A stretch of DNA of 64,000 nt from Pseudohongiella spirulinae (lineage in GTDB: Bacteria > Pseudomonadota > Gammaproteobacteria > Pseudomonadales > Pseudohongiellaceae). The notes below the pieces were generated by a model. It made no database searches. It was not told the origin of the DNA and was given only the letters and a program-made list of their open reading frames with translations. The DNA is taken from contig NZ_CP013189.1 of assembly GCF_001444425.1 (NCBI RefSeq), positions 992,001 through 1,056,000 of the forward strand. Direction: 5' to 3'. How positions within the stretch are numbered: position 1 is the stretch's first letter; each line of letters begins with the position of its first letter. Shown here in pieces: positions 49,946 through 60,723 of this stretch. The position numbers and the translations under genes are program-made.

Positions 49946-51067
49946 CTACTCAATGACCCGATGCACCATATACATTTTGCGAAGCGAGTCTACGGTCAGC
50001 ACGAAGGGATAGCTGTCCGGCTGTCCCATGCTGCGGGCCAGTACGTTCAGCACACTGCTGAGTCTGACCCATTGGTTTGCGCGTTCCAGAAACGTCAACA
50101 TTGATTGTGGATTGGCAGAGTGAAAAGGGCAGTTCGCAAGATCACGGGCCGTAAAGGGATCGGTCTGAATACTGAGCGCCGCGGCGTCAATGCCAAACTG
50201 TTCAGCTGCGCTCAGGGTGTCCGTCATATGCAGGTAGTGCGCCCAGGTTTCTGCCCAGTCCTCCCAGGGGTGGGATGCGGCATAACTGCTGATGTAGTGG
50301 CTTTGCCAGTCTGACGGCGGTCCGGCGTTGTAGTGATTCTGCAGAGCCTCCGTATAATCCATGCGTTCATCGCCGAACAGGTTTCGATAAATGGGCAGCC
50401 AATCAGTATGCAGCACCAGCCTGTCCCAGTAATAGTGGCCTGACTCGTGGCGAAAATGACCGAGCAGTGTTCTATAGGGTTCACGCATCTGCTGACGAAT
50501 CTGTTCACGGAAAGCAGGATCGGCTTCTGCGATATCGAGCGTGATGATTCCGCCCTGATGACCCGTGACGGGCACATCCTGGCCTGGCTGCCAGCGCAAT
50601 AATTCAAATCCAAGCCCATGGGCCGGATCCATCTGGCGCGTCTGCACCGGCAGCCCCAGGATCAAGAGCTGTGCAATCAGGCGGCGCTTGGCTATCTCGC
50701 ACAAGCGCCAATAATCTGCGTTACCCGCTTGAGTCAGGTCAGGGATGGTCACATTGGTGGCGCAGGCCAGACACAGGTCAACCGCACTGTTCTGGTCAAG
50801 GCTGCCGGTAACCAGCCAGTTGCACTGTGCAGGTGAATCGACGTTGGCACAACGCCGATAAGTATCAATTATTCTAAGGCTGCTGCTTTTGTCATCATGC
50901 AGAATCCAGCGCCCGGCTTCCTCGGCAGGCAACAGGCTGTGAATACGTCCGTGTTCCGGATGGAAAGCCAGTGCTGAGCCACAGCGCAGGCAGACACTGT
51001 TATCAAAGAAAACCACTTGTCCGCACTGGCAGTGCTGGCGGTGACTGTATGAGCTGAAATGGGTCAT
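49946..51067 (-). CDS. Zinc-ribbon putative metallopeptidase (Peptidase_Mx-like)
   Basis: 373 residues, no signal peptide. A zinc ribbon lies at the N-terminus (CQCGQVVFFDNSVCLRCG, with Cys13, 15, 26 and 29) with more cysteines near 100-130. FRHESGHYYWD (near residue 207) gives an HExxH zinc-protease site, and EDWAETWAHYLHMTDTL supplies the likely third ligand. This matches the family called putative zinc-binding metallopeptidase. It begins three bases after the alpha-E gene, so the operon is ATP-grasp, alpha-E, peptidase. The peptidase may trim or release the product made by the other enzymes (inference). Confidence 0.88.
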   Translation of the reverse strand: MTHFSSYSHRQHCQCGQVVFFDNSVCLRCGSALAFHPEHGRIHSLLPAEEAGRWILHDDKSSSLRIIDTYRRCANVDSPAQCNWLVTGSLDQNSAVDLCLACATNVTIPDLTQAGNADYWRLCEIAKRRLIAQLLILGLPVQTRQMDPAHGLGFELLRWQPGQDVPVTGHQGGIITLDIAEADPAFREQIRQQMREPYRTLLGHFRHESGHYYWDRLVLHTDWLPIYRNLFGDERMDYTEALQNHYNAGPPSDWQSHYISSYAASHPWEDWAETWAHYLHMTDTLSAAEQFGIDAAALSIQTDPFTARDLANCPFHSANPQSMLTFLERANQWVRLSSVLNVLARSMGQPDSYPFVLTVDSLRKMYMVHRVIE

Positions 51068-51070
51068 CGC

Positions 51071-52045
51071 TTATGCTGTTTGACTTTGTGAATTGTCGGC
51101 CGGGCTCTCATGAACGCTTGCGAAATAAGTTGCAGCCAACGCATCATGCAGTTCAATAAAGTCCAGTTGAATGTCATCAACAAAGGCGTGCAGCCGTTCC
51201 GGCTCGCTGGCAAGCAAGGGGATGTCGGCGGCCGCTAGATGCTGACGGCAGGTCTCCACTTCATTTAACACGCGATCATGACGCGGCAGTGTCAACAGGG
51301 CATTGGCAAAACGTTCCAGACAGGTGCCGACTGCGCGCGGGAACTGCCGATCCTGTAGCAGGAAACTCAATACATCCGGTCCGCGAATACGCAGGCGAAC
51401 GTGCTGGCGATACATCTGATAACCGCTGAGTGATTTCAGTACACTCATCCACTGGATGTTCTCAAAAGGAGTCAGTTCTCCCGGACTACGGGGTAGCAGG
51501 TTGCCGGAGCGCACATCGATGATTCGGGTAATCATGTCGGCGCGTTCCAGTTGGCGACCCAGCATCAGAAAGGTGCGTGCCTGGGTGTAACTCAGTGTGC
51601 CTTCGATCAGCCCGTTGACGGTCTGGCAACTGCGAATGACTCGTGTCAAAAACGCGTCTCGCTTGCGAGGTGTGATGCCGGATTCAACCTGATCACGTAC
51701 GGACAGGTAGAGTTGATTGATTTCTTCCCAGATTTCTCTGGGAATCACATCCCGCGTGGTGCGCAGATTCTCGCGAGCCGCGGCCAGTGACCGAATGATA
51801 GAGCCAGGATAGCGTTGATCACCGCAGATAAAGGACAGCACACTGCTTTCATCATGATTGCTGTAAAGCTCATCAAACAGGTCGGCATTGCCGGTGATGG
51901 CGATAATTTCTGTCCAGCCCAGCTTTGTGGATCTCGGCAAATCCAGCAGCAGGTTACTGTTAACGCTGAGCAGTCGAGCCGTGCCTTCTGCCCGTTCAAT
52001 GTAGCGCGCCAGCCAGTATATATTTTCGGCGACTCTGGATAACAT
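51071..52045 (-). CDS. Alpha-E domain protein (DUF403)
   Basis: 324 residues, all predicted helical. The start MLSRVAENIYWLARYIERAE is the alpha-E signature with conserved Glu and Arg; TRVIRSCQTVNGLIEGTLSY and FLMLGRQLERADMITRIIDV follow. Alpha-E proteins are known only from their tight linkage or fusion with circularly permuted ATP-grasp enzymes and are thought to be helical partners in the same pathway. It starts two bases after the ATP-grasp stop and is followed three bases later by the metallopeptidase. Confidence 0.92.
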   Translation of the reverse strand: MLSRVAENIYWLARYIERAEGTARLLSVNSNLLLDLPRSTKLGWTEIIAITGNADLFDELYSNHDESSVLSFICGDQRYPGSIIRSLAAARENLRTTRDVIPREIWEEINQLYLSVRDQVESGITPRKRDAFLTRVIRSCQTVNGLIEGTLSYTQARTFLMLGRQLERADMITRIIDVRSGNLLPRSPGELTPFENIQWMSVLKSLSGYQMYRQHVRLRIRGPDVLSFLLQDRQFPRAVGTCLERFANALLTLPRHDRVLNEVETCRQHLAAADIPLLASEPERLHAFVDDIQLDFIELHDALAATYFASVHESPADNSQSQTA

Positions 52046-52047
52046 GG

Positions 52048-53502
52048 CTACTGGCCCTCCAGATCAACAATCCAGGTGTCTTTGCTGCCGCCGCCTTGAG
52101 AGGAGTTGACGACCAGAGAGCCTTTGACCAGAGCAACGCGGGTCAGGCCACCTGTGGTGACATAGGTTGACTCGCCGGACAGGATAAAGGGCCGTAAATC
52201 GACGTGCCGGGGCTCCATGTCATTGCCAATCAGGGTGGGCGAGGTCGACAGCGCCAGTGTTGGCTGGGCCATATAGTTGCGCGGGTCAGCCTTGATCAGT
52301 TCGGCAAATTTCTTGCGCTCTTTTTTGTTGACGTGCGGGCCGATCATCATGCCGTAGCCGCCCGATTCATTGGCAGGTTTGACAACCAGTTTGTCCAGAT
52401 TCTCCAGAACGTAATTGCGGTCGTCTTCGAACATGCACAGATAGCTTGGCACATTGGGGATCAGTGGTTCCTGATCGAGATAGTATTTGATGATTTTGGG
52501 CACAAAGGCGTAGACAACCTTGTCATCTGCCACGCCGGCACCGGGCGCATTGGCCAGTGCAACATTGCCTTTGCGCCAGGCGCGCATCAGACCACGTGCA
52601 CCCAGCGCTGACTCGGGATTAAAGACTTCCGGATCCAGGAACATATCGTCGACCCGACGATAAATCACATCCACCCGCTGCAGTCCGTTTACCATTCTCA
52701 TGTAAACACAATCATCATCCCCGACGACCAGGTCAGAGCCCTCCACCAGCTGCACGCCCATCTGTTGGGCCAGGTAGGCGTGTTCATAATAGGCGCTGTT
52801 ATAGATGCCGGGGGTCAGAATCACAATTGAAGGATCGTCACCCGGGCGCGGGCTCATTGAGGCCAGCATATCGTATAGCTGCGACGTATAGTCGTCGACC
52901 GGCTGGATGAATCCGGTGGCAAACAGATCTGGCATGACGCGTTTGGTGACGTTGCGGTTTTCCAGCATATAGGAAACGCCCGATGGCACCCGCAGGTTGT
53001 CTTCCAGCACGTACAGAGTGCCGTCCTTGTCGCGCACCAGATCGGAGCCACAGATATGCGCCCAGACATTGTGCGGCGTGTTGATGCCCACACACTGTGG
53101 CCGAAAATTGACCGAGTGGGCCAGCAGCTCTGCCGGAAAGACCCCGTCTTTGACTATTTTTTGGTCATGATACAAGTCATTGATGAACATATTGAGCGCC
53201 TGGACCCGCTGTTTGAGTCCGGCTTCTGTCTTCTGCCACTCTTTCAGGGGAATAATGCGCGGCACAATGTCGAAGGGCCAGGCACGGTCAATCATGCTGC
53301 CCTCGGTATAAACCGTGAACGTAATACCCATCAGTTGAATGGCCAGTTCGGCAGCCGCCTTGTGCTCTGTGAGCTCTTTGGCGTCCAGTCGGGCCAGGTA
53401 GTCACACAGCATGGCCGCTTCCCGGCGAGGCTTGCCTGGCGAGGCAATCAACTCATCATAGAATCCGTCAAAATTATAAGCGTCCCAGTTAACATTACTC
53501 AT
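52048..53502 (-). CDS. Circularly permuted type 2 ATP-grasp protein
   Basis: 484 residues. YVLEDNLRVPSGVSYMLENR and DDVYMRMVNGLQRVDVIYRR-type regions (here DDCVYMRMVNGLQRVDVIYR) are the acidic and basic core; LVVKPANESGGYGMMIGP is the ATP-binding lysine plus glycine-rich loop, followed by RNYMAQPTLALSTSPTL. The order of these parts is permuted compared with classical ATP-grasp ligases (DUF404/DUF407 families). Such enzymes are predicted to form amide bonds using ATP. It is the first gene of the minus-strand operon and lies divergent from the transglutaminase operon across 232 bases. Confidence 0.93.
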   Translation of the reverse strand: MSNVNWDAYNFDGFYDELIASPGKPRREAAMLCDYLARLDAKELTEHKAAAELAIQLMGITFTVYTEGSMIDRAWPFDIVPRIIPLKEWQKTEAGLKQRVQALNMFINDLYHDQKIVKDGVFPAELLAHSVNFRPQCVGINTPHNVWAHICGSDLVRDKDGTLYVLEDNLRVPSGVSYMLENRNVTKRVMPDLFATGFIQPVDDYTSQLYDMLASMSPRPGDDPSIVILTPGIYNSAYYEHAYLAQQMGVQLVEGSDLVVGDDDCVYMRMVNGLQRVDVIYRRVDDMFLDPEVFNPESALGARGLMRAWRKGNVALANAPGAGVADDKVVYAFVPKIIKYYLDQEPLIPNVPSYLCMFEDDRNYVLENLDKLVVKPANESGGYGMMIGPHVNKKERKKFAELIKADPRNYMAQPTLALSTSPTLIGNDMEPRHVDLRPFILSGESTYVTTGGLTRVALVKGSLVVNSSQGGGSKDTWIVDLEGQ

Positions 53503-53542
53503 TCAGTGTCAGGTATCCATCATTGGTGAGTGTGCCCGCCCT

Positions 53543-53557
53543 AAGGCTGCCAGCCTT
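53543..53557. promoter_or_regulatory. Perfect 15-bp palindrome between the two divergent operons
   Basis: AAGGCTG, C, CAGCCTT is a perfect dyad, centred about 160 bases upstream of the start site expected from the sigma-54 element and about 48 bases upstream of the minus-strand operon start codon. Two direct repeats TTGTATCA (53612-53619 and 53631-53638) lie between it and the promoter. The position suits an enhancer-binding activator site, possibly shared by both operons. Confidence 0.5.
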
Positions 53558-53683
53558 GCCAGTATGCCCAAAACAGACAACGGTGCAACGGCCATAAATC
53601 AGCAGCAATCCTTGTATCAGTGTTACCTGTTTGTATCATGCGCCTGAACATTCGGCAACTGGCCCGTGAAAAGCTATTGCAAT

Positions 53684-53699
53684 TGGCACTCCCCTTGCT
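53684..53699 (+). promoter_or_regulatory. Sigma-54 (-24/-12) promoter of the transglutaminase operon
   Basis: TGGCAC at 53684-53689, five bases, TTGCT at 53695-53699: an exact match to the -24/-12 consensus (TGGCACNNNNNTTGCW), with GG and GC twelve bases apart. Transcription would begin near 53711, about 24 bases before the ATG at 53735. Confidence 0.75.
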
Positions 53700-53734
53700 A
53701 TGCTCCAAGCACTATCCCGTGCCGGAACTCTGTT

Positions 53735-56700
53735 ATGACGATTCGTGTTGCACTGAGACATTCAACCCGTTATCAGTTTGATAAACCCGTTCAGGTTTTT
53801 CCTCACCACATTCGCCTGAAACCCGCGCCTCATTGCCGTACGCCCGTCGAGGCCTACAGCATGAAGATCACGGGTGGTGAGTACTTCATCAACTGGCAAC
53901 AGGATCCGTTTGGCAATCACGTTGCGCGGCTGGTGTTTCCGGAGAAAATCTCCAGTCTGCAGGTGGATGTTGAAGTCATCGCGCCGATGACGGTGATAAA
54001 CCCCTTCGATTTTTTTGTGGAAGAGTACGCAGAGCATTTCCCCTTCAATTATCCGGAGGCTTTAAAGAAGGATCTGGCACCCTATCTGGAAACTGGCCAG
54101 CCGGACTCGCAGGGACAGGACGGGCCATTGCTGCAGGCCTGGTTGGAGCGCGCCCGTAAGGAGCTGCTGAGCGGCGACAAGCTGTTAATCGCCAGTGCTC
54201 TGGTGGTTCTGAATCAGCAATTGAGTCAGGATATTGAGTACCTTATCCGCATGGAGCCGGGTGTGCAGACGCCCGAAGAGACACTGGCGCGGGCCAAAGG
54301 CTCCTGCCGTGATTCGGCCTGGTTGCTGGTGCACATTCTGCGCCGCCTGGGGCTGGCGGCACGTTTTGTGTCCGGTTATCTGGTGCAGTTGACCGCCGAT
54401 GTCAAAGCACTGGATGGGCCTTCCGGCACTGAAGTGGATTTCACCGATCTGCATGCCTGGACTGAAGTTTTTATTCCGGGAGCTGGCTGGATCGGTCTGG
54501 ATCCGACCTCCGGCCTGTTTGCCGGGGAAGGGCACCTGCCGCTGGCGGCAACGCCGGAGCCGTCAACGGCGGCGGCTATAACCGGGACGACAGCACCCTG
54601 TGAAGTTGAATTTGACTTCTCCATGAGTGTCACGCGTATCCATGAGGATCCGCGGGTCACCAAACCTTATACCGAAGCGCAATGGCAGCAGATTGACGCG
54701 CTGGGTCAGCAGGTTGATGAGCAACTGCAGGCGCTGGATGTGCGGCTGACCATGGGCGGTGAGCCCACTTTTGTATCCATCGATGATATGGATGCACCAG
54801 AATGGACCATCGCCGCGCAGGGGCCTACCAAACGAAAACTGGCGGAATCACTTTTACATCGATTGCGCCCGCATTACGCACCGAATTCACTGCTTCACTA
54901 TCAACAGGGCAAATGGTATCCGGGAGAACCACTGCCGCGCTGGGCGCTGGCCTGCTACTGGCGGACTGATGGCAAGCCCATGTGGCACGATGAGCGCTGG
55001 TTGGCGAAGATGGATGAGCATCATGCGGTCGGAGAAACCGAATTGCAGGCATTTGCGAGGTCGCTGGTCAAACGGCTGGCGGTGGATGAGAAGTATCTGA
55101 TTCCCTGCTACGAGGATGCTTATTACTATCTGTGGCTGGAGCGTCAGCAGCCCGTCGATATCGATCTGCGCGGCGAGGATTTGGGCAAGGATGAAGATCG
55201 TGTTCGCCTGGCCAGGTTGCTGGAGCGCGGCATGGATAAACTGGTGGGCCTGGCCTTGCCGCTGACTGCACAGTCGCTGTCTGTCGCTGGTGGCAAGAAG
55301 GCGGAGAATGGCCGCAAAGACATCAGAGGCTGGTTGAGCGGTCGCTGGCCGGTGCGGCGCGATCATCTGTATCTTATCCCGGGCGATTCTCCCATGGGAC
55401 TGCGATTGCCGTTGAGCGCCTTGCCGGTTAATAAACGCGAAGAAGAACAGCCTCCATCCTGGTTTGAAGAGCTTCCGCCGTTGGCTGAGGATAATGGCCA
55501 GGTCGCTCAATGGTACAGCGAGGTGCCGCGCCTGCAGCCTGGTGTTACTCCCGGTGGGCTGCATGTGCATGGGCGCAGTCAGGAGTGGCAGGAACAGTTC
55601 GCCGAGCCTGACAAGGAAGAGGCGATCGGGACGGCGCTTTGCCTAGAGCCACGTGATGGAAAATTATTCGTTTTTATGCCGCCGCTGCCAAAACTGGAAG
55701 ACTATCTGGCATTGCTGGGCGCTATTGAACAGACTGCAGCGGACAGACAACTGCCAGTCTGTGTAGAGGGCTACCCGCCCCCTTCTGATCCGCGCCTGCA
55801 GAAATTCATGATTACACCGGATCCGGGTGTGATTGAAGTCAATGTGATGCCGGCGTCCAGCTGGAATGATCTGGTGTCCAATACGCGAATTCTTTATGAG
55901 GAGGCGCGGCAAAGCCGGCTGGGCACAGAGAAATTTATGCTCGATGGCCGTCACACCGGCACCGGCGGTGGCAATCACGTCACGCTGGGCGGCGCCACTC
56001 CCTCAGATTCACCCTTTTTGCGCCGACCCGATTTACTGGCCAGTATGCTGATTTTCTGGCAACACCATCCCAGTCTGTCGTATCTGTTTTCCGGTATGTT
56101 TCTGGGGCCGACCAGTCAGGCACCCAGAGTTGATGAAGCAAGACATGAGGCTCTCTATGAGCTGGAGATCGCGCTGTCCCAGATGCCTGTTGGCGAGGTT
56201 CCGGAGCCCTGGCTGGTCGATCGCCTGCTCAGGCATTTGCTGACTGACATTACGGGCAATACCCACCGGGCAGAGTTCTGCATTGATAAGCTGTACTCGC
56301 CGGATTCAGCCACGGGGCGGTTGGGATTGCTGGAGCTGAGAGGTTTTGAAATGCCGCCTCATGCCGAGATGAGTCTGATGCAGCAACTACTGATTCGTGC
56401 ATTGGTCGCGCGTTTCTACGCCTCGCCCTACCGCAAGCCGCTGGTGCGCTGGGGCACGGCCCTGCACGATAAATGGATGATGCCACACTTCATTTGGCAG
56501 GACTTGTGTGATGTGCTGGCAGACCTGCGTGACCATGGTTTTCAATTCGAGCCAGAGTGGTTTGCGCCGTTTCAGGAGTTCAGATTCCCACTGGCCGGCG
56601 AGGTGCGCTACAACGGCGTGCATCTTCAGCTGCGTCAGGCTATCGAACCCTGGCATGTATTGGGGGAGGAAGCCAGCGGGGGTGGCACGGCACGTTATGT

Positions 56701-57145
56701 TGACTCCTCCGTTGAGCGGATAGAAGTCAAACTGATCGATTACAATCCGGCCCGTCACTTGCTGAGTTGTAACGGTTATCGAGTGCCTTTACAGCCCACC
56801 GGCGTGCCGGGAGAGGCCGTGGCGGCAGTGCGTTTTCGAGCCTGGCAACCACCCTCGGCCCTGCATCCGATGATCAAAGTGCATGCGCCCCTGGTTTTTG
56901 ATCTGATCGATACCTGGAATGCGCGATCGCTGGGCGGCTGTACCTACCATGTTTCGCACCCGGCGGGGCGCAACTACGAAACATTCCCTGTCAATGCCAA
57001 TGAAGCCGAGGCCCGACGAATGGCCAGGTTCTGGGCACATGGTCATACTCAGGGCGACGTTTGTCGCATTGAAAATGCTCCCGGGCAGGAATACCCCCAT
57101 ACACTGGATCTGCGGCGTGCCGATGTGCCTGCGGGAGGCCTGTGA
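53735..57145 (+). CDS. Transglutaminase-like protein with DUF2126
   Basis: 1136 residues from the ATG at 53735, chosen because homologous sequence begins with TIRVALRHSTRYQFDKPVQV and the sigma-54 element lies just upstream; the longer reading from 53666 would begin inside the promoter. Order of domains: bacterial transglutaminase N-terminal domain (1-100), transglutaminase core with Cys191 in GSCRDSAW, His in DLHAWTEVF and Asp in GLDPTSG, then a long DUF2126 region with LDVRLTMGGEPTF, VIEVNVMPASSWNDL and RRPDLLASMLIFWQHHPSLSYLF. DUF2126 resembles a glutamine-synthetase-like or amidoligase fold in some analyses. It is followed by the ATP-grasp/alpha-E fusion after 75 bases. Confidence 0.92.
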   Translation: MTIRVALRHSTRYQFDKPVQVFPHHIRLKPAPHCRTPVEAYSMKITGGEYFINWQQDPFGNHVARLVFPEKISSLQVDVEVIAPMTVINPFDFFVEEYAEHFPFNYPEALKKDLAPYLETGQPDSQGQDGPLLQAWLERARKELLSGDKLLIASALVVLNQQLSQDIEYLIRMEPGVQTPEETLARAKGSCRDSAWLLVHILRRLGLAARFVSGYLVQLTADVKALDGPSGTEVDFTDLHAWTEVFIPGAGWIGLDPTSGLFAGEGHLPLAATPEPSTAAAITGTTAPCEVEFDFSMSVTRIHEDPRVTKPYTEAQWQQIDALGQQVDEQLQALDVRLTMGGEPTFVSIDDMDAPEWTIAAQGPTKRKLAESLLHRLRPHYAPNSLLHYQQGKWYPGEPLPRWALACYWRTDGKPMWHDERWLAKMDEHHAVGETELQAFARSLVKRLAVDEKYLIPCYEDAYYYLWLERQQPVDIDLRGEDLGKDEDRVRLARLLERGMDKLVGLALPLTAQSLSVAGGKKAENGRKDIRGWLSGRWPVRRDHLYLIPGDSPMGLRLPLSALPVNKREEEQPPSWFEELPPLAEDNGQVAQWYSEVPRLQPGVTPGGLHVHGRSQEWQEQFAEPDKEEAIGTALCLEPRDGKLFVFMPPLPKLEDYLALLGAIEQTAADRQLPVCVEGYPPPSDPRLQKFMITPDPGVIEVNVMPASSWNDLVSNTRILYEEARQSRLGTEKFMLDGRHTGTGGGNHVTLGGATPSDSPFLRRPDLLASMLIFWQHHPSLSYLFSGMFLGPTSQAPRVDEARHEALYELEIALSQMPVGEVPEPWLVDRLLRHLLTDITGNTHRAEFCIDKLYSPDSATGRLGLLELRGFEMPPHAEMSLMQQLLIRALVARFYASPYRKPLVRWGTALHDKWMMPHFIWQDLCDVLADLRDHGFQFEPEWFAPFQEFRFPLAGEVRYNGVHLQLRQAIEPWHVLGEEASGGGTARYVDSSVERIEVKLIDYNPARHLLSCNGYRVPLQPTGVPGEAVAAVRFRAWQPPSALHPMIKVHAPLVFDLIDTWNARSLGGCTYHVSHPAGRNYETFPVNANEAEARRMARFWAHGHTQGDVCRIENAPGQEYPHTLDLRRADVPAGGL

Positions 57146-57220: not shown

Positions 57221-59845
57221 ATGCAAGCTGATTCATCGCCAGATTCCGTTAAAGCCCTGCTGCGGGACTATGCCGGCAGCCAAAGCTTTGATGAGCTTTT
57301 TGATGAGGGCCGACCGCGAGCCCACTGGCAACATCTGCTGAGTGAATATGCCGCGCTGGGTCCGGAAATCCTTGTGCAGCGCAGCGATGAAGCACAAAGT
57401 CGACTGCATGAAAACGGCGTGACTTTTAATCCTTATGAAGATGATCCCGGGCAGCTGCGCTCCTGGCGACTCGATTGTGTGCCCTGGGTCATCAATACCC
57501 AGGAGTGGGCGAGTCTGGAGCAGGGGCTACAGCAGCGCAGCCGCCTGCTGGCTCATCTGCTGGATGATCTGTATGGGGAGCGTCGCCTGATCCGTGAAGG
57601 ATGGCTGCCACCTGAATTGGTCTACACGCATCCGGGTTTCCTGTTTTCTGCAGCTGATTCGCCATCGCTGATCGAACGGCCTCTGCTGATTTTCCATGGC
57701 ACCGATGTTGTGCGCGATGAAGCCGGGCAGTGGCAAGCGCTGGCTGACTGGACACAATCGCCTTCTGGCGTTGGTTATGCTCTGGAAAACCGCATCACTT
57801 TGTCCCGGGCATTGCCGGGCTTATATCGTGACGCTCCTTTGCAGCGCCTGGCCGGTTTCCTGCAGGCGCAGCATCGCTGTCTGGCCAGCCTGGCGCCCAA
57901 GCAGCGGGATCAGGCCAATATCGTCTTGCTGACTCCCGGCCCGGGCAGTGCGGGTTATTTTGAACATGCCTGGCTGGCCAATTACATGAATATTCCACTG
58001 GTGGAGGGTGATGACCTGCTGGTTCGGGAAGGGCAAGTGTCTGTGCGGACGCTTGGCGGCCTGGATAAAGTTGATGTGATCCTCAGACAGATCAACGACC
58101 CCTGGTGTGATCCGCTTGAGCTGCGCCCGGACTCTCTATTGGGTGTGCCGGGCCTGCTGCAGGCCGCTCGTAATGGCGAGGTGCACATTGTTAATGCGCT
58201 GGGTGCCGGTGTGCTTGAACATCCTGCCTTGATGGCATTTTTACCACAACTGTGTGAACGCTTACTGGGCGAGTCATTGCGGTTACCATGCCGCGAAACA
58301 CTCTGGTGCGGTGATGATGCATCGTTAAAGAGGGTTCGACAGGCACCAGAGGAGTGGGTAATCAAAGACATTACCAAACCTGGCAAAGTGTTTCATGTGG
58401 ATCAGATGGGGCTTGAACCTGCCCGGCATCTGCGGATGGATCTTGACGCCCGACCGCATCTGTTTACGGCCCAGAGACCGCTAAAAGCCGCCACGACGCC
58501 CGGTTTCAGTCCGCAGACCGGGTTATTTGAGAAGCAACAGGTCTCCATGCGATTTTTCAGTCTCCTGGAACCGGACGACTGTCAACGTCCGGTTACCGAG
58601 CAGCACTATCGGACCATGCCGGGTGGCGTGGCATGGGTTGGCGAGCCGGGTTCGGCACTGATGAAAAGCCCGGTGGTCAAAGATATCTGGGTCCTGGCGC
58701 CAGTGCCGCAGCCACATATCAGTATGCTGCGACAGGCCGGCGGGCCCATATTGTTTACCCGTGACGGCAAGGATCTGCCCTGCCGTGTTGCAGAAAGTCT
58801 GTTCTGGTTGGGACGGTACGGTGAGCGTCTGGATATCCGCGCGCGCCTGCTGCGCGAGTCACTGAGCAAATTGTTGCAGGAAGACCCACAAACGGAAACC
58901 AGCAGTCTATTGCCTGACCTGTTGACGGCGCTTGGCATTGCGCCAGAAGAAAAGAAGCTGGCCGCTGCTCTTCAAGACATTGCGGAACATCCGCGCTTTT
59001 CCAGGTATCACGTGCTGGCGCGGGATCGATTGCTGAATCTTCTGAGTGATCAGGGGCAGGGCGGCATGCCCGGAATTTTCGCCAGCTTCCAGCGTAACAG
59101 TCGCGCGGTGCGTGATCACCTGGGTGATGATAGCTGGCGTGCGATCAGCAAGGTACGACAGCGTTGCAATGCCATGTCACGCAGCAAAGGCGTTGTTGCC
59201 GGGCAGAGAGAACTGGAAGCCGTTGTGCTGGATCTGGCAGCGTTTTTCAGTTTATGCAACGAGACCATGCCGCATCATTACGGCTGGCGATTTCTGGACA
59301 TCGGCCGGTTTATTGAGCGGGTGCTGGCGACACTTGAGCTTCTGAAGCTGGCGTTGTTGACGGCCCGTCAACCCGGCGTTGCCCTATGGGAAGTGGTGCT
59401 GGCAACAACGGATAATTTTACTGTCTATCGCCGACGCTTCCGCTCGCAGTTGCATCCCTCGGCCATCCTGGATCTGTTGTTGTTTGATGAAACCAATCCG
59501 CGTTCAGTTGGTTATATGCTGAAACGTATTGGGCGCCAGGTGGCCCGCTTACCGGATCAGGATAATACATCGTACAGGAACCAGGAGAATCGACTGATTA
59601 TCGAGGCCAGCAGTACACTGCACCTGGCTGACATCGATTCATTGGCAGGCCTGGAGAATTCTGAATCAGCTCGTGAGGCTCTCAATGACTTGCTGGACAG
59701 GCTGATTGCGCCAATGTCGGCATTGTCAAATGCTGTCTCCCATAGTCATTTCAGTCACGTGGAGGCGCCCAGACAGTTGGTGACCATGCAGATCAGTCCG
59801 GGCCTGGATGATGGCAGGGTGCCTGGTCGGGGGGAGCGTCGATGA
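57221..59845 (+). CDS. Fused circularly permuted ATP-grasp and alpha-E protein
   Basis: 874 residues. The first ~510 residues are a second permuted ATP-grasp: PSGVGYALENRITLSRALPG, NIVLLTPGPGSAGYFEHAWL, VEGDDLLVREGQVSVRTLGG, EEWVIKDITKPGKV. The glycine-rich ESGGYGM loop found in the stand-alone copy is absent here, so nucleotide binding may differ. From LPCRVAESLFWLGRYGERLD (about 525) to the C-terminus are alpha-E repeats, including HHYGWRFLDIGRFIERVLA. Fusion mirrors the separate genes on the other operon. No good ribosome site is seen; the stop overlaps the next gene (ATGA). Confidence 0.92.
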   Translation: MQADSSPDSVKALLRDYAGSQSFDELFDEGRPRAHWQHLLSEYAALGPEILVQRSDEAQSRLHENGVTFNPYEDDPGQLRSWRLDCVPWVINTQEWASLEQGLQQRSRLLAHLLDDLYGERRLIREGWLPPELVYTHPGFLFSAADSPSLIERPLLIFHGTDVVRDEAGQWQALADWTQSPSGVGYALENRITLSRALPGLYRDAPLQRLAGFLQAQHRCLASLAPKQRDQANIVLLTPGPGSAGYFEHAWLANYMNIPLVEGDDLLVREGQVSVRTLGGLDKVDVILRQINDPWCDPLELRPDSLLGVPGLLQAARNGEVHIVNALGAGVLEHPALMAFLPQLCERLLGESLRLPCRETLWCGDDASLKRVRQAPEEWVIKDITKPGKVFHVDQMGLEPARHLRMDLDARPHLFTAQRPLKAATTPGFSPQTGLFEKQQVSMRFFSLLEPDDCQRPVTEQHYRTMPGGVAWVGEPGSALMKSPVVKDIWVLAPVPQPHISMLRQAGGPILFTRDGKDLPCRVAESLFWLGRYGERLDIRARLLRESLSKLLQEDPQTETSSLLPDLLTALGIAPEEKKLAAALQDIAEHPRFSRYHVLARDRLLNLLSDQGQGGMPGIFASFQRNSRAVRDHLGDDSWRAISKVRQRCNAMSRSKGVVAGQRELEAVVLDLAAFFSLCNETMPHHYGWRFLDIGRFIERVLATLELLKLALLTARQPGVALWEVVLATTDNFTVYRRRFRSQLHPSAILDLLLFDETNPRSVGYMLKRIGRQVARLPDQDNTSYRNQENRLIIEASSTLHLADIDSLAGLENSESAREALNDLLDRLIAPMSALSNAVSHSHFSHVEAPRQLVTMQISPGLDDGRVPGRGERR

Positions 59846-60723
59846 AGTATCAGATCCGGCACCTTACTCGCTATGACTATAGCGGGCAGGCTACGCTCAG
59901 TCACAATGAAGCACGTATGCTGCCGCGCAACCTTCCCTGGCAATTTAATCTGAGTAACCAGTGGCAGATCACTCCGGCCCCGGTGCGCATGCGTGAACGT
60001 ACGGATTTTTTTGGCAATCGGGTTGTATATTTTGCAACCGAGACAATTCATGACAGTCTGGAGGTGCTTGTGCAGAGCGAGGTGGATATTCAGCCGCGTC
60101 CTGTACAGGATATTTTTTCCAGTATCAGTTGGGAGGCGGCTGTATCAGAGATAAAGGCCGGGATGATCAGGGGCGATGAGGAGTGTATTGAAGCCCGGTT
60201 GTTTGCCCTGGAGTCTCCGTTCATTCGTCATCAACACTCGCTGCTGGAATTTGCTCACGAAAGTTTTTCAGTCAGCTGCGATCTGGTGACGGCACTAACA
60301 GACCTTAATCAGCGCATTTTTACAGACTTTACCTATGACCCTGATGTGACCACAGTAGCCACTCCGGTCCATGAGGTGCTGGCAGATAAACGTGGCGTGT
60401 GCCAGGACTTTGCTCACTTGATGATTGCCAGTTTACGGACTCTGGGGCTGCCGGCCCGATATGTCAGTGGTTACATGGAAACCCTGCCACCGCCGGGGCA
60501 GAGTAAACTACTTGGTGCTGATGCCACTCACGCCTGGGTGGCCGCTTTTATACCGGGTTGGGGCTGGCTGGAGCTGGATCCGACCAATGGCTGTATGGCC
60601 GATGAGCGCTATATCGTATTGGGCTGGGGTCGGGACTATGCCGATGTGACACCGCTGAAAGGTGTTATGACCGGTGGTGGCGAGCATGAGCTCACTGTGG
60701 CCGTTGATGTTGTCGGCGTCTGA
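59842..60723 (+). CDS. Transglutaminase family protein (short form)
   Basis: 293 residues. The N-terminal domain begins MKYQIRHLTRYDYSGQATLS, the bacterial transglutaminase N region. The core has Cys187 in RGVCQDFAHLMIASLRTLG, ARYVSGYME, His in DATHAWVAAFIPGWGW and Asp in LDPTNG, so the catalytic triad is intact. These papain-fold enzymes may act as peptidases or transamidases. It is translationally coupled to the fused ATP-grasp/alpha-E gene and closes the operon, which faces tamB tail to tail with 33 bases between. Confidence 0.94.
   Translation: MKYQIRHLTRYDYSGQATLSHNEARMLPRNLPWQFNLSNQWQITPAPVRMRERTDFFGNRVVYFATETIHDSLEVLVQSEVDIQPRPVQDIFSSISWEAAVSEIKAGMIRGDEECIEARLFALESPFIRHQHSLLEFAHESFSVSCDLVTALTDLNQRIFTDFTYDPDVTTVATPVHEVLADKRGVCQDFAHLMIASLRTLGLPARYVSGYMETLPPPGQSKLLGADATHAWVAAFIPGWGWLELDPTNGCMADERYIVLGWGRDYADVTPLKGVMTGGGEHELTVAVDVVGV

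Follow-up and report, generated by a model that had tools for sequence, protein, structure and literature searches.

In Burkholderia cenocepacia H111, the four-gene cluster I35_5080-83, which includes genes for transglutaminase-like proteins, is among the common NtrC/sigma-54 targets under nitrogen limitation set out in the available part of a published survey, with log2 values of -9.4 for I35_5082 and -6.0 for I35_5083 in an ntrC mutant (PMC5491218). In the accessible text of two further studies, PP_2686-PP_2688 of Pseudomonas putida respond to nitrogen limitation with induction (PMC7801951, PMC8050072), which has been ascribed to NtrB/NtrC (PMC7801951). The original prediction held that activator control of this family of loci was undescribed; such control is already in print, to judge from these partial sources (PMC5491218, also PMC7801951 and PMC8050072). 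The P. putida evidence is not uniform. Induction of PP_2686 was approximately equal in the wild type (12.61) and an rpoN mutant (14.16), as was that of the urt genes (PMC7801951), a pattern that fits badly with simple sigma-54 dependence. The PP_2688 promoter is nitrogen-responsive (3.7-fold) and the PP_2685 promoter nitrogen-agnostic, again from the available sections of the report (PMC8050072). The available portions of two other papers describe induction of Anbu in nitrogen-limited P. putida (PMC5666114) and, in marine metagenomes, co-occurrence of these domains with urea metabolism (PMC3597751). DUF2126 itself appears in none of the papers found.

The locus considered here lies in a 64,000-nucleotide stretch of the Pseudohongiella spirulinae chromosome, referred to below as the window. 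Gene assignments were taken from the open reading frame list and Pfam, and for the first gene also from relatives. The forward-strand operon begins with a 1136-aa transglutaminase and DUF2126 putative amidoligase (53735..57145), followed by an 874-aa circularly permuted ATP-grasp protein fused to Alpha-E (57221..59845) and a 293-aa transglutaminase-like protein (59842..60723) whose gene overlaps the preceding one by 4 bp. Transcribed divergently on the reverse strand are genes for a 484-aa circularly permuted ATP-grasp protein (52048..53502), a 324-aa Alpha-E protein (51071..52045), and a 373-aa protein with a zinc-ribbon and a putative zinc metallopeptidase (Peptidase_Mx; 49946..51067). Translation of the transglutaminase-DUF2126 gene most likely starts at ATG 53735, the point at which the conserved protein also starts in relatives; the reading frame listed from GTG 53666 is a mechanical extension.

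The forward sigma-54 element and its conservation

The sequence TGGCACTCCCCTTGCT (53684..53699, + strand) reads TGGCAC-N5-TTGCT, exactly as predicted, and its start 51 bp upstream of ATG 53735 agrees with the original view that the element stands at the right distance from the start codon. The -24 GG occupies positions 53685-53686 and the -12 GC positions 53697-53698, ten bases apart within an exact TGGCAC-N5-TTGCW. Sigma-54 promoters initiate approximately 12 bases past the GC, which would place the transcript start near 53710. The usual sigma-54 -24 form is TGGCACG, and the seventh letter of the window element is T rather than G.

The exact TGGCAC-N5-TTGCT occurs once in the window, where 0.07 occurrences are expected. 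When two mismatches are allowed the window holds 50 matches versus 53 expected, a chance frequency that deprives loose matches of weight and leaves only exact fit and conservation to count. Genome-wide there are six exact TGGCAC-N5-TTGCW sites, the window site included; one lies 176 bp 5′ of a glutamine-synthetase-like ORF (a type recognized by eye), others lie 67 bp (also inside an antisense ORF) and 239 bp before ORFs, and two of the six fall within ORFs. With one mismatch, TGGCAC-N5-TTGCW has 181 genome matches versus 73 for the reversed pattern. The genome encodes RpoN (PF04552, 240.7 bits) and contains 11 matches to the enhancer-binding ATPase domain, seven of them strong.

Conservation was assessed at 93 orthologous loci, a box being defined as a GG-N10-GC element that lies 30-95 bp 5′ of the start and matches at least 9 of 11 positions. 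The loci derive from the best 30 matches of a search in which 48 of 99 genomes matched and from the best 80 of 120 relatives; of the 15 genus genomes searched, one (G011) had no match. Near-copies of a retained contig or upstream region (L044-L050, L052-L054, L071, and L132) were left out of the 93, as were L055, which lacks its start and shares a contig with L078, and L066, L072, L084, and L105, which have too little upstream sequence. A box was found in 46 of the 93 loci, against approximately 1.75 expected from dinucleotide shuffles; controls with the spacer one base shorter or longer gave one match and none, respectively, over all groups, and the reverse strand gave three. It could be argued that the exact match arose by chance, given that 7 of 100 shuffled versions of the window contain at least one such match and that two of the exact genome sites lie within ORFs, but the recurrence of the box at the orthologous position contradicts this reading and makes it very improbable.

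The box is present in 10/13 Pseudohongiella loci, 9/9 Halopseudomonas/Pseudomonas-like loci, 7/7 Nitrincola loci, 5/6 loci from other gammaproteobacteria, 11/13 from betaproteobacteria, and 4/24 from alphaproteobacteria. It was found in none of seven loci of a mixed group (Acidihalobacter, Acidithiobacillus, Thiotrichales, Magnetococcales, Nitrospinae, and one unplaced) and in none of 14 from other genera of the Pseudohongiella family. These groups were drawn after the sites had been looked at; the total of 46 spans all of them and is unaffected by the grouping. RpoN was found in all 27 relatives searched, including family genomes lacking the box, and at orthologous loci boxes are kept while the flanking sequence diverges. 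The -24 GG is retained in all 13 genus loci, and the -12 GC is changed to GT in three (L073, L077, and L078). Thus, the anticipated conservation of the GG/GC pair in related genomes extends far beyond the genus, but fails for the GC in three of 13 genus loci and for the entire site in the family's other genera. In the loci of those genera designated L056-L068, the divergent genes are only ∼25-80 bp apart, the sigma-54 boxes are gone, and RpoN is kept. The L073 contig is labeled Rhodoferax, and the grouping of its locus with Pseudohongiella suggests that it is probably a mislabeled metagenome bin.

The proposed sigma-54 promoter before the transglutaminase/amidoligase operon is upheld by its distance from the gene, by GG/GC conservation beyond the genus, and by the presence of RpoN; the site very probably represents a true sigma-54 promoter, one that many related bacteria have retained, and its position and conservation suggest sigma-54 dependence in vivo. 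The best overall explanation, to which we assign a probability of about 0.8, is an RpoN promoter for the transglutaminase-DUF2126 operon that is opened by an activator and most likely triggered by a shortage of nitrogen.

A sigma-70-like motif (53677..53704, + strand) overlaps the sigma-54 box; it reads TTGCAA-N16-TATGCT, the second hexamer being preceded by TG. The functional Pseudohongiella promoter could be of the sigma-70 type, its -10 extended (TTGCAA-N16-TG-C-TATGCT), the sigma-54 match being a remnant or part of a dual promoter. The extended -10-like TGNTATNNT overlaps the box in all 13 genus loci, TTGC is retained at the -35-like position across the genus alignment, and the GC to GT change that breaks the sigma-54 -12 element in three loci leaves TGN-TAT intact. 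However, TGNTATNNT occurs in only two of the 32 non-genus loci compared, which were all chosen for having a sigma-54 box, the -35-like hexamer is poor, a stricter sigma-70 scan returned no site in 53400-53800, and the -24 GG, letters that a sigma-70 spacer does not require, persists in 13/13 genus loci. A dual or sigma-70 promoter is therefore quite unlikely, and it is retained as the leading alternative within the genus on account of the GC loss within it, the boxless loci of the family, and the conserved TGNTATNNT. The original prediction held that the operon is silent until an enhancer protein is triggered; the overlapping motif could provide a basal level of expression.

A second box facing the divergent operon

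Alignment with relatives identifies a second sigma-54 box, absent from the original prediction, on the opposite strand of the intergenic region (TGATACAAGGATTGCT; 53604..53619, - strand). It faces the divergent operon and is damaged in the window, where its -24 GG is changed to GA and no GG-N10-GC box remains on that side. Of the 13 genus loci, the window alone has no intact box (TGGTAY-N5-TTGCW); the other 12 keep it. In relatives with the divergent layout TGGTAY-N5-TTGCW is found on the opposite strand, 54-134 bp 5′ of the ATP-grasp start; L091 has TGGCATGCCGGTTGCT. At a stringency of at least 10 of 11 positions the divergent box is detected in 29 of the 31 loci with this layout, for which shuffles would give 0.11. 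The two failures are L095 and the window, and the forward box is detected at the same level in 27 of those 31.

The locus is therefore typically a sigma-54 divergon, one side of which seems to be damaged in the window's species, as judged from the aligned sequences. With one -24 G missing from the second box, expression of the divergent operon may be weaker here or may need another promoter. Among the papers listed by the literature searches, none described divergent sigma-54 promoters at this locus.

It is proposed that RNA polymerase with RpoN would be held waiting at the -24/-12 box and that the promoter would be opened by an AAA+ enhancer-binding protein attached to intergenic DNA. For most relatives that share the layout, one activator bound between the two boxes would switch on both operons together. 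The trigger would most likely be a shortage of nitrogen, or of carbon or nitrogen in relation to each other, and in Nitrincola it would act through NtrC.

Candidate activators

NtrC is encoded in the genome (TIGR01818, 749.4 bits versus a cut-off of 558.6), one protein passing the equivalog cut-off, and is above cut-off in 24 of 27 relatives. NtrC-type palindromes were scored against TGCACYA-N3-TRGTGCA, with a maximum of 14. In Nitrincola, a palindrome scoring 12-13 (p ≤ 0.004) lies between the promoters in 7/7 loci. Its distance is 102-131 bp to the forward box and 70-93 bp to the reverse box, which suits a single enhancer shared by both promoters. Of the eight loci tested from the Halopseudomonas group, two (L086 and L099) score 11/14 (p ∼0.01). 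Among 20 further loci, from betaproteobacteria and others, a clear NtrC-type site is seen in L123 (P. mendocina) alone, and L091 has p 0.03.

The window's genus presents a different picture. Between the boxes, no above-chance palindrome was detected in any of the 11 loci tested from the genus (scores of 7-9, p 0.3 to 1), the near-copies L077 and L078 having been left out of the 13, and none scoring above 11 was found within 1.5 kb upstream in 13/13. In L073 and L077, a score of 12 is reached at +89, inside the coding sequence. Allowing one mismatch, the own genome contains 30 matches in all, which include glnA-like and glnK-like genes and none near the locus; upstream of these two genes the palindrome scores 13/14, providing positive controls. 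Another of the own-genome one-mismatch matches is followed at a distance of 149 bp by the sigma-54 site TGGCACGAAACCTGCT, which itself has one mismatch (G000:C1:1875101-1875265), and marks a further candidate NtrC target. The proposal that NtrC activates the locus in the window's genus through weak or unusual sites draws on the presence of the gene here and in most relatives, on NtrC control of the related B. cenocepacia cluster, and on the palindromes in Nitrincola, L123, and part of the Halopseudomonas group; set against the failure to find such palindromes at the genus loci and their occurrence at glnA-like and glnK-like genes instead, its likelihood falls slightly short of even.

Between the two boxes, the genus alignment contains a partly conserved stretch (GTATCA ... 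GGCAAC; 53630..53661), picked out by eye, that represents a candidate activator site. Dyad enumeration for an enriched palindrome in the genus gaps gave at best 6/11 versus 3.1 expected, and the palindrome lead was dropped. Another potential activator in the genus is a CbrB-like regulator sensing carbon/nitrogen balance. The enhancer-binding protein L004 (G000:C1:2565142-2567100) resembles CbrB. CbrB recognizes the subsites TGTTAC and GTAACA (PMC6296734). Both precede a sigma-54 box, TGGCACACTAAGTGCA, located 126 bp downstream of L004, and when one mismatch is tolerated the subsites are in slight excess in the genus gaps (17 versus 10.1, p 0.027), as they are in the Halopseudomonas group (17 versus 9.1, p 0.013); in Nitrincola they are not over-represented (6 versus 15.3). 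The sequences counted are related, however, so the subsite counts are not independent; in addition, scans revealed no consistent fixed spacing of TGTTAC/GTAACA pairs, the NCBIfam families listed for L004 include no CbrB model, and a literature search for CbrB with transglutaminase found nothing. A CbrB-like activator in the genus is accordingly unlikely.

Past TGGCACACTAAGTGCA are an A/C-rich stretch with AACAATAA repeats and a G/C-rich inverted repeat, and the region downstream of L004 has the look of a non-Pseudomonas locus for a CrcZ-type small RNA; Rfam gave no match at E 0.1 for L004, L043, or L013, and the resemblance thus depends on features recognized by eye. Elsewhere in the genome (G000:C1), the one-mismatch sigma-54 site TGGCACGATGCTTGAT (458236-458251) adjoins the L006 enhancer-binding protein and precedes a small exported-looking ORF (458807-459307).

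A broader reading, somewhat unlikely as a whole, is that the locus carries an ancient back-to-back sigma-54 switch that fires two amidoligase/peptide-pathway operons simultaneously, in which the promoters have been kept and the activator exchanged, and in which the window's species is losing one promoter. NtrC would then act in Nitrincola and some Pseudomonas, and another enhancer-binding protein, perhaps CbrB-like, in Pseudohongiella and Halopseudomonas. The apparent loss of NtrC sites with retention of the promoters provides a testable case of activator turnover.

Comparison with characterized loci

Within the same genome, the glnA and glnK promoters possess sigma-54 boxes (TGGCACGACTCTTGCT and TGGCACGCCCCGTGCA) as at this locus, but each has a strong NtrC-type palindrome ∼100 bp upstream of the box, whereas the transglutaminase locus is without one. 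The promoter is ordinary in kind; the transglutaminase/ATP-grasp/Alpha-E/DUF2126 system that it precedes is uncharacterized.

The P. putida cluster PP_2685-PP_2688 encodes protein types related to those of the window, namely the transglutaminase PP_2686 and the circularly permuted ATP-grasp protein PP_2688, and differs in having an Anbu-type peptidase, according to the accessible part of the literature on it; none was present in the six window proteins scanned. As far as the available text of the B. cenocepacia account extends (PMC5491218), I35_5080-83 contain a large "transglutaminase-like domain" protein and a smaller one, and share with the reading preferred here, an RpoN promoter opened by an activator, a link to nitrogen limitation; I35_5083 would correspond to a DUF2126 orthologue, judging by its label alone. 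Divergent boxes do not feature in that part of the account. The divergent partner box and the difference between lineages in NtrC sites are what the present analysis adds to earlier knowledge of such clusters. Both divergent operons probably act together, and the conserved sigma-54 switch, the NtrC-type sites of Nitrincola, and the published nitrogen-limitation data together point to a condition under which the product of the system could be sought.
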